This document shows, piece by piece, positions 1,281 through 15,900 of a stretch of DNA of 64,000 nucleotides (the first letter of the stretch is position 1; each line of letters opens with the position of its first letter). The notes below the pieces were generated by a model. That model did no database searches. It was not told where the DNA came from and saw only the letters and a list, made by a program, of their open reading frames with translations. Source of the DNA: a virus; IMG/VR virus record IMGVR_UViG_3300037725_000018, positions 124,001 through 188,000 of that record, one strand, 5' to 3'. A program made the position numbers and the translations under genes.

Positions 1281-1329
1281 AGAATATAGACATTAATATT
1301 TGAATTGAAAACAGATAAAAATTTTATAG

Positions 1330-1743
1330 TGGACCCGGCGGGATTCGAACCCGCGTCCGCAGCACCTTTGCAACATCGGTTGTCACAGTCTTAGAATGGT
1401 CTTTATTTTTGACCGACAGACTATTGTATTAGACCACACAAAAGTTTGTGGGTTTTATTTCAACCCGCTATCGGACTTGTTTTACGTTCTGCCTACCAAG
1501 CAAAACAAGTTGAAGCCCAGTAGGAATATCCGATGGTGTGTGCCTTACTCTCTATCGGAGTCGAGAAGTAAGGCTGCAGTTACGCCGCAAGAGAAGCGCC
1601 GAAGTGCTCCTCCATGTTGACGCCTGCAGGAACGCGGTTAACGTTGCCAAGTATTGATTCCGTCAGTTATTTTATGCCCACCTAACGGTAAGGGCAGACT
1701 GCCGACCTTGCTCCGCGTGCTACGTCGAAGCCGTGTCAGGCCC
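1330..1743 (-). ncRNA. ssrA: transfer-messenger RNA (tmRNA)
   Basis: A 414-nt one-piece tmRNA. The 5' end GGGCCUG pairs with the 3' CGGGUCC to give a 7-bp acceptor stem with a G3-U70 pair, the alanine identity element, and discriminator A. The T-arm is GCGGG-TTCGAAT-CCCGC. CCA is not encoded. Inside are the typical TTCGAC D-loop segment, a downstream pseudoknot (GCCTTACT/AGTAAGGC with loop TCCGAT pairing to ATCGGA) and another 8-bp hairpin (CTTGTTTT/AAAACAAG). The tag frame starts at a GGC resume codon after ATACTT. A leader-like motif lies upstream at about 1778-1812. It rescues stalled ribosomes and tags the products for proteolysis. Confidence 0.93.
1580..1648 (-). other. tmRNA tag reading frame
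   Basis: An internal frame of the tmRNA with 22 sense codons and TAA. It begins G-N-V-N-R-V and ends G-A-S-L-A-A. The terminal L-A-A is the usual degradation signal. The resume codon GGC is inferred from the preceding AUACUU, which resembles AUAGUC before GCA in E. coli. At 22 residues the tag is longer than the common 8-15. If resumption began elsewhere the tag length would change, but the L-A-A end would not. Confidence 0.7.
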
Positions 1744-5958: not shown

Positions 5959-6864
5959 CTATCTTGTTAAGGCGTCGTATGCAGCCGACGTTTTTGGAAT
6001 ATTTTGCTTAATCCAATTTAGAACCTCTGCCTGTACTTCTGTATTTCGTTTGTAAGGTTTTCCAGCTTCTTTCAACGTTATGTATTTGAAGTCTTTAACA
6101 ACTCGCTTTCCAGCAAACGCTTCTTCTCTGTCTTCGGGGTCTTCCGGATAAACGTCTCTGGACGGGGGCTTGGTTTTAAAATCCCCTTCTCCTTCCGGAT
6201 CTTCAAAGAATACCGTGTGCTCCGGATTACCTAAGATAACACGAACACTTCCGTTTACGCCACTTGGAGTTCCGTTCCGGACAATATCGGTCATTGTATT
6301 TGCCGCCCCTTCATGAGTTTTAAGTACAATGTCGTCGGGCACAATTCGGTCGCGGTCTCTATTTCTCTGTACAGCTATGTGGTAATCGGTAAGAACCCAA
6401 GTAATATGAATATTTTGATCTTGGTATCCTACTTCTTTTAGGTCAGGAAGAACCTCTTTGATTTGGCCGATACGTTTTAACGTAACATCAAAAAGAAGGT
6501 TTGGAAGGCGTCTTTCGTCTCGACCTTTAAGAAGGTTTAGAATCCGTTTTTCTTTAAGGCCAAGTTCGTCTGCAAACCTGTGAAGTTTTGAAACGTCTTG
6601 GGGATTTGAAAGGTCAAGACCGTCAAGCTCGGGATATCTACCTTTTGCGTCGTTGATCTTTAGAAGAAGGTCCTTAAATTGATCAACGTCAATGATTCGG
6701 AATTTATTTCCCTCCATAAAGTTTGAAATTGCAAATCCTTTCCCGGACCCTGCGCCCCCGGCTAAGAATACGACTTGCCCGTGTCTTGCACCGTTGTTAT
6801 ACAGGATTTGCTTTTCCAACAAAATTTCTCTTGTCACTTCTCGAAGCAGGTCATTAAACTTCAT
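5959..6864 (-). CDS. P-loop kinase-like protein (zeta-toxin/phage kinase type)
   Basis: 301 residues. After a leader helix (FNDLLREVTREILLE) comes a strand and P-loop, FLAGGAGSGKG (to residue 43), then a D-x-D segment (IIDVDQF), a pattern found in zeta-toxin-like and nucleoside-kinase-like phage proteins. Phosphoryl transfer from ATP is likely; the acceptor is unknown. The first 17 residues resemble the start of the 9582 protein, suggesting a shared localisation or assembly tag. A TATATA promoter-like element lies about 75 bases upstream. Confidence 0.7.
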   Translation of the reverse strand: MKFNDLLREVTREILLEKQILYNNGARHGQVVFLAGGAGSGKGFAISNFMEGNKFRIIDVDQFKDLLLKINDAKGRYPELDGLDLSNPQDVSKLHRFADELGLKEKRILNLLKGRDERRLPNLLFDVTLKRIGQIKEVLPDLKEVGYQDQNIHITWVLTDYHIAVQRNRDRDRIVPDDIVLKTHEGAANTMTDIVRNGTPSGVNGSVRVILGNPEHTVFFEDPEGEGDFKTKPPSRDVYPEDPEDREEAFAGKRVVKDFKYITLKEAGKPYKRNTEVQAEVLNWIKQNIPKTSAAYDALTR

Positions 6865-8280: not shown

Positions 8281-8595
8281 TTACGATTCATCTTCTAAAA
8301 GTTCCTCCATATACGCAACAAGTTTATTTTTTCGAACAACGCCAACATGCTCTTTTACGAGTTCTCCTTTGTAGTAGACGTGAATAGTTGGAACGCTTCG
8401 AATGCCTTTCTCAGAAACGTGATCTATGTTTTCATCGATGTTAACCTTTACTATTTCGGTTCCGTCAACGTCAACTTTGTCTAATACCTTTGCAAGACGG
8501 TTACACGGCCCGCACCATTCGGCATAGTAATCTATAACCGCAACATCTGTGTTGTTGATAACATCTTCAATTTCTTCTGCCTGTATTTCTTTCAT
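8281..8595 (-). CDS. thioredoxin
   Basis: 104 residues, the full thioredoxin length. Active site WCGPC at residues 27-31 after strand VAVIDYYAE, and the cis-proline loop RSVPTIHV near residue 75. It reduces disulfides and could serve ribonucleotide reductase or act as a polymerase processivity partner, as in other phages; neither partner is in this window. Confidence 0.95.
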   Translation of the reverse strand: MKEIQAEEIEDVINNTDVAVIDYYAEWCGPCNRLAKVLDKVDVDGTEIVKVNIDENIDHVSEKGIRSVPTIHVYYKGELVKEHVGVVRKNKLVAYMEELLEDES

Positions 8596-8653
8596 GTAAT
8601 TTAAAGTAGTTTTTATCAGTTCGTTTATTAGTGTTTCGGGTGTTGTGTGTTTT

Positions 8654-8748
8654 TGGCAGCGTCCGGGAATCGAACCCGGAGAGAAAACAGGAGTGAAAAT
8701 TTACAATCCAGTTCTTATGCTGGTTTGTAAGGCCGCAAATTACCTGCC
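8654..8748 (-). tRNA. tRNA-like sequence, class II size, anticodon unclear
   Basis: The 3' half is tRNA-like: T-arm TCCGGG-TTCGATT-CCCGGA and acceptor strand CGCTGCC with discriminator A. The 5' candidate GGCAGGT pairs at only five of seven positions. The middle folds into one long hairpin (TTACAA/TTGTAA with CCAG/CTGG) whose loop CATAAGAA lacks U33. It is about 95 nt, so a long-variable-arm tRNA is possible, but it may be degenerate or a tRNA mimic. It lies beside the structured RNA at 8817-9289. Confidence 0.45.
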
Positions 8749-8816
8749 TTCTCAACGCCGAAGATCCGACTTTCGACGTGCCCATCGCAACGCTGCTTCA
8801 CTCATATATAAGAGAC

Positions 8817-9289
8817 TTCAAGAAAGCTTCACACTTGAAAACGAAAGCGGTTTGGTTTGTCGTATATCTATTCACACACAAGCAACATTTCGGACACAAT
8901 CTAAAGCGTATGTCGCCTATGCGTTGACCGAACTAATCCGGTTTTTTGACCGGGCACTGATAAACATTTGCCTAGTTCATCGCAGGCTAAAAAAAGTATC
9001 AGCGGGGCCACATACGAAGAGGCGAACGATGCCGAGCACGGCAACCGGGACTGTTTGACAAACAGTTTAAAGAAATCAAACAGGGTTGGTGGGAACGTTC
9101 GCCTCTTACGATCCGACGTAAGATCGTAAATTTTACGTCATACCATATGTCCGAAATAAAACAAGCCCAACTGGAAGCATAAGATCCGGGATCGATTCCG
9201 GTGAGAAGTTCCAGCGGCTAAAACGGCTTGACCGGAGAGTGTTCTAAAATCTCTTCCCGGTTAAGCATGGGGTTTGTATGTCCAAACCC
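8817..9289 (+). ncRNA. large ornate structured RNA (GOLLD/ROOL-like candidate)
   Basis: No convincing ORF, but many near-perfect helices: TTCAAG/CTTGAA (8817/8834), CCGGT/ACCGG (8938/8949), CTGATA/TATCAG (8957/8997), a 12-bp stem AAGAGGCGAACG/CGTTCGCCTCTT (9017/9096) enclosing a TGCCG/CGGCA hairpin and CTGTTTGA/TCAAACAG, an H-type pseudoknot (TTACGATC/GATCGTAA at 9106/9122 with loop GACGTAA pairing to TTACGTC at 9133), CTGGAA/TTCCAG (9171/9209), a 10-bp stem GCTTGACCGG/CCGGTTAAGC (9226/9257) and GGGTTTG/CAAACCC (9270/9283). A G-U pair in the 10-bp stem favours the plus strand. Phage genomes carry giant RNAs (GOLLD, ROOL) near tRNAs; membership is not shown. Confidence 0.6.
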
Positions 9290-9581
9290 GAATACTGGAG
9301 TGTGAAGGGAAGCAAAAAAAACTTTGAAGTGTTATTTGTAATGCTAGTAGTAATATTAATAGTAGTAGTAGTAGTGAAAGGTGTCTTTGAAGTTTTACTT
9401 TTAAACTAAACTAAAACTGAAAAAACTACACTTGATACTACTGAAAATAACACTTTGAAACCTTTTACAGCTTCACTTTTAAGTTACACTTCCTTTCTTA
9501 CTTTCTACCTATAAATAGAAGTAGAGGGTAAAACACTTTAAAATAGGTTTACGCACTTAAAGCCTAAAACTTAACAAAACT
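9290..9581. other. AT-rich intergenic region with TAG repeat
   Basis: 292 bases without an ORF. It contains a (TAG/TAA)n microsatellite at about 9343-9376 and very A/T-rich sequence leading to the plus-strand gene at 9582. It probably holds that gene's promoter, but I cannot point to one convincing site. Confidence 0.4.
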
Positions 9582-9938
9582 ATGAAACTACAAGAAAGAA
9601 AACTTCGCTCGCTTATTAGAGAAATAACAAAAGACGTGTTGTTTGAAGACGAAAAAGACCTAAGTGACGTAGATGTAGAAGAAGGAAAAATGCACCGGGT
9701 TTTAGACATTCCAGAAGACGAAAATATATCTGACAACTACGATTCCGGTGAACAGCTTGCAAGAGACTTAGTAGACGCTGTAGGAGATGAACAAGAAGCT
9801 TCTGGAATGCTTGCATTTGCAGCAAATATTGATCCGGAAGACAACATTTTTGACGACGCTTTAGAAGCAATTGGAGAAATTGACTTTGAAGAGTCTTTGA
9901 AGTTAAAAAACAAGACTAGCTACAAAGACCTCTTTTAG
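9582..9938 (+). CDS. acidic protein with LIRE-type N-terminal motif, unknown
   Basis: 118 residues. A basic N-terminal helix (KLRSLIREITKDVLFE, residues 7-22) precedes a strongly acidic helical body. Similar short L-I/L-R-E-[IV]-[TK] leaders occur in other proteins of this window (5959 and, more weakly, 10005). Such leaders are common in marine-phage proteins, where they may direct assembly; that is inference. First of two plus-strand genes downstream of the structured RNA. Confidence 0.65.
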   Translation: MKLQERKLRSLIREITKDVLFEDEKDLSDVDVEEGKMHRVLDIPEDENISDNYDSGEQLARDLVDAVGDEQEASGMLAFAANIDPEDNIFDDALEAIGEIDFEESLKLKNKTSYKDLF

Positions 9939-14942: not shown

Positions 14943-15900
14943 GAAAGCGATCTTTCATTTTTTCAACGTGCTTGTCCGGAACCCCGTGAGTCGTTTTTCC
15001 ACCGTGACGATTCTCTTTCACAATGCTGTGGACCCGGTACCCGTTTAGAGAAGCAACATGGTAGTAATAAATCATTTCCCATGTCCGGGTAAACGTGTTG
15101 TCCACAACAATCCGCTCTTTTCCGTCACGCATGGCGTTGAAGACTTGCGTTTGGCACCAAGCGTGTGCCTCGGAAAGACGGCTTTTATCGAAGTTGTAGT
15201 TTCCGTCTTCGTCGGTGAAAAAGTCGTCTGCGGAAACGCGAACGTCCGGATCGATAAGAGAAGAAAACGTCGTCTTTCCAGAGCCGGGAACCCCGCGAAC
15301 CAAAATCAAATCTCCGCGTTTCTTTCGGCTTTCAAACGTGTTTTCAATCTTAGAAAGAATCTTCTCTTCAAAATCCCGAAAGTCCTTTTCGGCTCTTTCT
15401 CTCCGGGCTTCGGTGGTCCGGTCCATATAACCAACCATGTCGTCAGCCTTCGTGAAAGCCTCAAGCATTTCCCAAGCGTTCATGTCAAATCCGGAGGCTT
15501 CCCGCTTCATCCGGTCAACCTTCGAATCAGACATGTCTTCGATGAACTTGATCTTCATGTGGTTTTTCACAATCCACCGAACCAAATCCCGGTTGATTCC
15601 TTCCGGAAACATAAACGGCATGTGGGAAACGTAATCTGCCGAAATGCTCGCGTGCCCGTAAGAAGTCCAATGTCCGTGTTTGGGGTGACGTTTGGTGCAA
15701 TCAATCTTTCCAACGTCGTGAAAGAGAATCGCCCAAATCATCACCTGAACTTCTTCGGCTTCAAACCCCCCACTGAAGTCCCGGATAAAACCATCCATCA
15801 CAAAAGCGGTGTGTCTCCACACGTTGCCTTCAGGGTGATAGTCTTCTCTTTGGGGAGTCTCCCGAAGCTGGTTGAAAATATCTTCAATAAAAGCCTTCAT
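14929..15900 (-). CDS. HD-domain/5'-polynucleotide kinase fusion
   Basis: 323 residues. The N-terminal half is an HD phosphohydrolase: H30, H61-D62 in FHDVGK, later H83. The C-terminal half is a P-loop kinase: LVRGVPGSGKTT (200-211) with SADDFF and an R-rich lid. This domain order (HD then kinase) is the one described for phage RM378 polynucleotide kinase, the reverse of T4 Pnkp. It heals broken RNA or DNA ends by 5' phosphorylation and probable removal of 3'/cyclic phosphate, making ends for the RNA ligase at 16722. Together they would repair tRNAs cut by host anticodon nucleases. Confidence 0.9.
   Translation of the reverse strand: MKAFIEDIFNQLRETPQREDYHPEGNVWRHTAFVMDGFIRDFSGGFEAEEVQVMIWAILFHDVGKIDCTKRHPKHGHWTSYGHASISADYVSHMPFMFPEGINRDLVRWIVKNHMKIKFIEDMSDSKVDRMKREASGFDMNAWEMLEAFTKADDMVGYMDRTTEARRERAEKDFRDFEEKILSKIENTFESRKKRGDLILVRGVPGSGKTTFSSLIDPDVRVSADDFFTDEDGNYNFDKSRLSEAHAWCQTQVFNAMRDGKERIVVDNTFTRTWEMIYYYHVASLNGYRVHSIVKENRHGGKTTHGVPDKHVEKMKDRFQTRL

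Follow-up and report, generated by a model that had tools for sequence, protein, structure and literature searches.

What is carried by a stretch of about 1 kb that holds no credible gene and separates a thioredoxin-like gene (8281-8595, minus strand) from a gene of the opposite strand (9582-9938, plus strand) in a large phage genome? The window, i.e., the whole 64,000-nucleotide stretch of DNA that was analyzed, comprises bases 124001-188000 of a 223,357-base IMG/VR phage record. Unless another record is named, positions are those of the window.

Genomic Setting of the Locus

The large terminase of the phage is T4-like. The nearest matches in the annotated phage collection were found in LR756508, a 484-kb uncultured phage, with identities of 49% for the terminase, 56% for the ClpA-like protein, and 51% for the protein encoded at 5959-6864. 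In the case of the gene 9582-9938, which adjoins the putative RNA described below, the closest matches also include Rhodothermus phage RM378. Since RM378 serves as the cultured reference for the 'Far-T4' group (PMC4360716), the 223-kb phage is, judging by these protein similarities, probably a T4-like jumbo phage of the Far-T4 group.

The phage encodes approximately 42 tRNAs, a near-complete set, and a tmRNA (1329-1743, minus strand) with the tag GNVNRVPAGVNMEEHFGASLAA. The main array of about 40 tRNAs is located at least 13 kb from the putative large RNA in the record, single tRNAs lie about 5-7 kb away, and an atypical tRNA-like RNA is adjacent to it. Within the tRNA array, two adjacent hairpin elements with near-identical tops were observed (L159:15298-15443 and 15470-15564, approximately 95.3-95.6 kb of the phage record). 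The differences between their stems look compensatory, with GGCGGCTCAAC/GTTGAGCCGCC in one and GGTGGCTCAAC/GTTGAGCCACC in the other. A tRNA with a CTA anticodon, assigned by ARAGORN as Pyl, was found in LR756508.1 (L186:14334-14405) and is a possible amber suppressor.

Extent, Folding Potential, and Lack of Coding

The region 8815-9330 of the plus strand is a non-coding stretch of about 515 nt with about 15 predicted helices. The minimum free energy (MFE) of 8808-9330 was -174.8 kcal/mol, compared to -133.2 +/- 5.8 kcal/mol for dinucleotide shuffles, which corresponds to a z of -7.2, and none of the 100 shuffles was as good. For 60 random 523-nt windows taken from the same phage, the mean z was -1.09 (sd 1.55, minimum -5.76), and the RNA region, with a z of -6.8 in the same run, was below all 60 of them. 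As random windows of this genome reach values down to -5.8, a low z is not confined to RNA genes. Perfect inverted repeats of at least 8 bp were counted six times against 2.0 expected, and one repeat of at least 12 bp was found where 0.02 was expected. When 250-nt windows were used, most of the region was unremarkable among the non-coding gaps of these phages because its helices are long-range. The tetranucleotide CCGG was counted seven times, while 2.7 would be expected in an RNA of this length; this excess may reflect alternative pairings or contacts between molecules.

The region had been described as free of any protein-coding frame in a sequence-only reading of the window, and this was borne out. 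The sole sizeable ORF, which is also the longest one starting with ATG on the plus strand across the region (8717-9058, 113 aa), gave a codon log-likelihood of -17 nats, whereas the flanking genes scored +38 and +23. The same reading had placed the structured unit at 8817-9289. The presence of a structured region in this place was upheld, but its limits had to be moved to about 8815-9330. The unit is longer because two closing helices, 8827-8836/9298-9307 and 8815-8822/9323-9330, lie further out.

Predicted Fold of the Putative Large RNA

The predicted fold of the plus strand is composed of the following elements:

8815-9330 (+): whole putative structured non-coding RNA unit, with ends that we infer from the closing helices
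8815-8822/9323-9330 (+): outer closing helix, 8 bp with one G-U; mean pair probability 0.90
8827-8836/9298-9307 (+): closing helix with the 5' arm CTTCACACTT, 10 bp with a terminal G-U, of which 9 bp are perfect Watson-Crick; mean pair probability about 0.9
8887-9157 (+): central domain, covered by the model R1; its closing helix 8887-8896/9148-9157 is perfect over 10 bp
8907-9016 (+): multibranch arm with helices 8907-8913/9010-9016, 8915-8918/9005-9008, 8937-8943/8948-8954, 8957-8962/8997-9002, and 8970-8973/8984-8987
9017-9107 (+): 12-bp perfect helix 9017-9028/9096-9107 with branches 9030-9034/9039-9043, 9044-9048/9086-9090, and 9051-9058/9076-9083
9106-9139 (+): overlapping alternative hairpins 9106-9113/9122-9129 and 9115-9124/9130-9139, earlier taken for a pseudoknot
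9164-9219 (+): 3' domain arm 1, with 9164-9167/9216-9219, 9171-9176/9209-9214, and the T-arm-like hairpin 9186-9191/9196-9201; shares a segment with the tRNA-like RNA
9226-9266 (+): 3' domain arm 2, 10-bp helix 9226-9235/9257-9266 with an internal G-U (A-C mismatch on the minus strand), plus 9236-9239/9251-9254
9270-9289 (+): 3' domain arm 3, 7-bp hairpin GGGTTTG/CAAACCC

The long-range helices of 12, 10, 10, and 9-10 bp have pair probabilities mostly above 0.9. The helix 8827-8836/9298-9307 encloses both the central domain and the 3' domain with its three arms, so that a long-range stem would close the RNA. Within the central domain lie the multibranch arm, the 12-bp helix, the top of which is branched, and the palindrome-like 9106-9139 region. 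Two stems named in the sequence-only reading, a 12-bp long-range stem (9017/9096) and a 10-bp stem with a G-U pair (9226/9257), were recovered exactly at the positions given above, the latter with one internal G-U.

In the case of 9106-9139, an H-type pseudoknot had been proposed. The two complementary arm pairs do exist, but the pseudoknot as drawn was not supported. Its stem 1 takes 9106-9107 from the 12-bp helix, and its connecting loops would be 1, 0, and 3 nt long. In H-type pseudoknots, 3 nt do not suffice to span the shallow-groove side of an 8-bp stem. The calculated energies of the two hairpins are near-equal, -9.2 kcal/mol for 9115-9124/9130-9139 and -8.5 kcal/mol for 9106-9113/9122-9129. 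In terms of the folding model, the region is better read as two mutually exclusive, near-isoenergetic hairpins than as a pseudoknot.

The Neighbouring tRNA-like RNA

A tRNA-like sequence had also been noticed next to the large RNA. The analysis confirmed it and located it on the minus strand:

8655-8796 (-): 142-nt tRNA-like RNA with a 7-bp acceptor, a perfect T arm, and a long extra arm; separate from the 515-nt unit

This RNA lacks normal D and anticodon arms and has a short hairpin in the place of the D arm, as well as a further hairpin. In ARAGORN, it passes as a tRNA only if a 61-nt intron is assumed, and the tRNA-Sec model gave 16.8 bits, which is under the cut-off of 47. The tRNA-like RNA and the large RNA have in common a 15-base T-arm segment (14 of the 15 bases identical) and AGCATAAGA. 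With its near-palindromic sequence, the T-arm match gives the same score on both strands of the large RNA and is thus uninformative on the strand. The common segments may be due to chance.

Comparison with Known RNA Families

The comparison with 4227 Rfam families was performed with cmscan, on the whole window at the gathering thresholds and on 8560-9600 with permissive filters and E values up to 10. At the gathering thresholds, one tmRNA and two tRNAs were the only matches in the whole window. For the large RNA, there was no match at the gathering threshold and nothing relevant in 8560-9600 at E up to 10. The sequence-only reading had suggested such a comparison with GOLLD, ROOL, group I intron, tmRNA, and RNase P in particular; none of them matched at the RNA, and for RNase P this holds both at the gathering threshold and at E up to 10. 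With strong folding, no coding, and no Rfam match, the view that this is a large structured phage non-coding RNA outside the ordinary known classes is supported. Membership in GOLLD or ROOL, which had been considered, is unsupported because neither model matches at the gathering threshold or at E up to 10.

The large RNA resembles ROOL in being large (about 500-600 nt), multi-domain, phage-borne, and non-coding. Phage ROOL genes are often located near tRNA islands (PMC12286853), whereas the nearest ordinary tRNAs are about 5-7 kb off in the present case, and the large RNA gives no match to the covariance model. GOLLD is also a large, elaborate, phage-borne RNA, often found near tRNAs, of unknown function, and raised during lysis (PMC12286853). 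The large RNA differs from it by the lack of a model match and by its shorter length (about 515 nt versus often more than 800 nt). The likeness to tmRNA consists of a similar length, ends that are closed together, and one T-arm-like segment (9185-9199). Unlike tmRNA, however, the large RNA has no acceptor/T-arm ends and no tmRNA match, and the phage has its own separate tmRNA. Derivation from the latter was rejected, as the alignment was no better than that of shuffles. Group I introns, which are likewise structured RNAs of a few hundred nt, are common in T4-like phages. A group I intron was rejected on the grounds that no model match was obtained at E up to 10 in the whole phage record and that the large RNA interrupts no gene.

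A strongly folded non-coding stretch was observed in the related phage at LR756508.1 380001-380640 (L154:1-640). Its z is -9.7, and a long terminal hairpin accompanies its many short ones. Rfam (E up to 1) yielded no match worth noting for it, and blastn detected nothing similar in other phage records. This stretch is possibly a second, unrelated large RNA.

Search for Relatives

A direct DNA search of phage and plasmid collections (INPHARED and PLSDB) revealed no homologue of the large RNA. No syntenic IMG/VR contigs were reached via the protein 9582-9938, the GMP reductase/IMPDH-like protein, or the thioredoxin, and the protein 9582-9938 was not found in GTDB contigs. Relatives of the terminase were found, four of them near (93-100%, in IMG/VR) and the rest at 43-49%, and relatives of the protein 5959-6864 were found too. 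The four near relatives are short contigs, in none of which the RNA was found by DNA search or by model.

The covariance model R1 was built from the single sequence of the central domain and matches itself with 343 bits. A selection of about 60 phage records reached via the terminase or neighbour proteins was searched by DNA comparison, nhmmer, and the covariance model, and only chance fragments were obtained. R1 found nothing that exceeded chance in about 56 other phage records, and no match to it was found in 395 genomes of one bacterial phylum. An exact-pattern search for the 12-bp helix returned chance matches only, and a search for the T-arm-like segment returned none. A single-sequence model is weak on distant relatives; hence, these null results do not show that relatives are absent. 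The homologue searches may also miss records that are nearly the same as that of the window.

Strand, Promoter Motifs, and Alternative Explanations

The late-type promoter motif of the phage, CTATATATA with its variants, is clear across the whole phage record and is mostly located 30-110 nt ahead of genes. Two sites of this type are relevant here:

8803-8810 (-): weak late-type promoter match TATATATG, 6 nt ahead of the tRNA-like RNA; score 6.2, with 0.07% of all positions as high
9510-9517 (+): late-type promoter-like site TATAAATA, between the RNA and the gene 9582-9938

Near the RNA, the motif scan scores only the weak minus-strand site at 8810. The matrix of the phage's own motif detected no late-type promoter for an RNA of the plus strand, and TATATAAG at 8805 (+), considered as a late promoter, failed against the same matrix.

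The minus strand of the region also folds well (z of -6.05), and thus the folding energy says little on the strand. The functional transcript could run on the minus strand from about 9330 down to 8655, with the structured part followed by the tRNA-like domain. This would agree with the orientation of the tRNA-like RNA and of most neighbouring genes, and TACAAATA at 9340 (-) is one base off the late-type TATAAATA. The matrix, however, finds no minus-strand promoter near 9340, and the tRNA-like RNA is preceded by a weak site of its own at 8810. Moreover, the internal G-U of the helix 9226/9257 becomes an A-C mismatch on the minus strand, which breaks the helix, and the energy of the plus strand is lower by 5 kcal/mol. 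The helix-internal G-U and the lower energy weakly favour the plus strand; in our judgement, it would be about three times as probable as the minus strand, and we regard the minus-strand transcript as unlikely. On the plus strand, the RNA might instead act in cis on the gene 9582-9938, as its leader or as a regulatory element. This gene has the same orientation and begins 250 nt downstream, and a distant relative of it is located directly behind the terminase in LR756508. Those 250 nt, however, are an A+T-rich gap (28% GC), and the RNA is predicted to be closed on itself by the helix 8815-8822/9323-9330. A leader is also less likely because the gene is preceded by a late-type promoter-like site of its own at 9510, and we consider this explanation very improbable.

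There may also be no RNA gene at all, and the signal would then come from inverted repeats acting at the DNA level, e.g., in a replication or recombination site, or from decayed sequence that folds by chance. Repeats are present in the spacer 9330-9580, whose A+T content is among the highest in the genome, the 9106-9139 region is palindrome-like, and no homologues were found in the collections searched. On the other hand, the helices are long-range and nested, with a z under all the sampled windows, and a G-U within a long helix is expected of RNA, not of DNA. The cumulative GC skew has no extreme at the RNA, and on this ground a replication origin was rejected. We give the absence of an RNA gene a small chance.

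Proposed Nature and Role of the Large RNA

The computations show a strong long-range folding potential, no coding, and no known family. We propose a free-standing structured non-coding RNA of about 500 nt from the plus strand of this T4-like jumbo phage, which probably is of the Far-T4 group, and we hold the chances for and against this proposal to be about equal. The RNA would be transcribed from the plus strand as a free molecule, its transcription, strand, and ends being what we infer from the features described above. Less certainly, and by analogy alone, its shape may give it a trans-acting role in infection, that of a scaffold or multimer, rather than that of a message, intron, or leader; for GOLLD and ROOL, work as a scaffold or oligomer has been found or proposed (PMC12286853).

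The best reading of the locus appears to be an orphan, lineage-specific large structured non-coding RNA, similar in kind to GOLLD and ROOL and a member of neither. It is conceivable, though we lean against it, that with this RNA, which shares short segments with the adjacent tRNA-like RNA of the opposite strand, a new family of ornate large RNAs from a jumbo T4-like phage lineage has its first member. In that case, the two RNAs would perhaps cooperate on translation in infection. To our knowledge, few classes of very large structured bacterial or phage RNAs have been described. Some very large structured RNAs were recently shown to form RNA-only cages. If the proposed RNA is real, it would be a new object for structure work, and a further unrelated large RNA would suggest that phages have invented such RNAs repeatedly.
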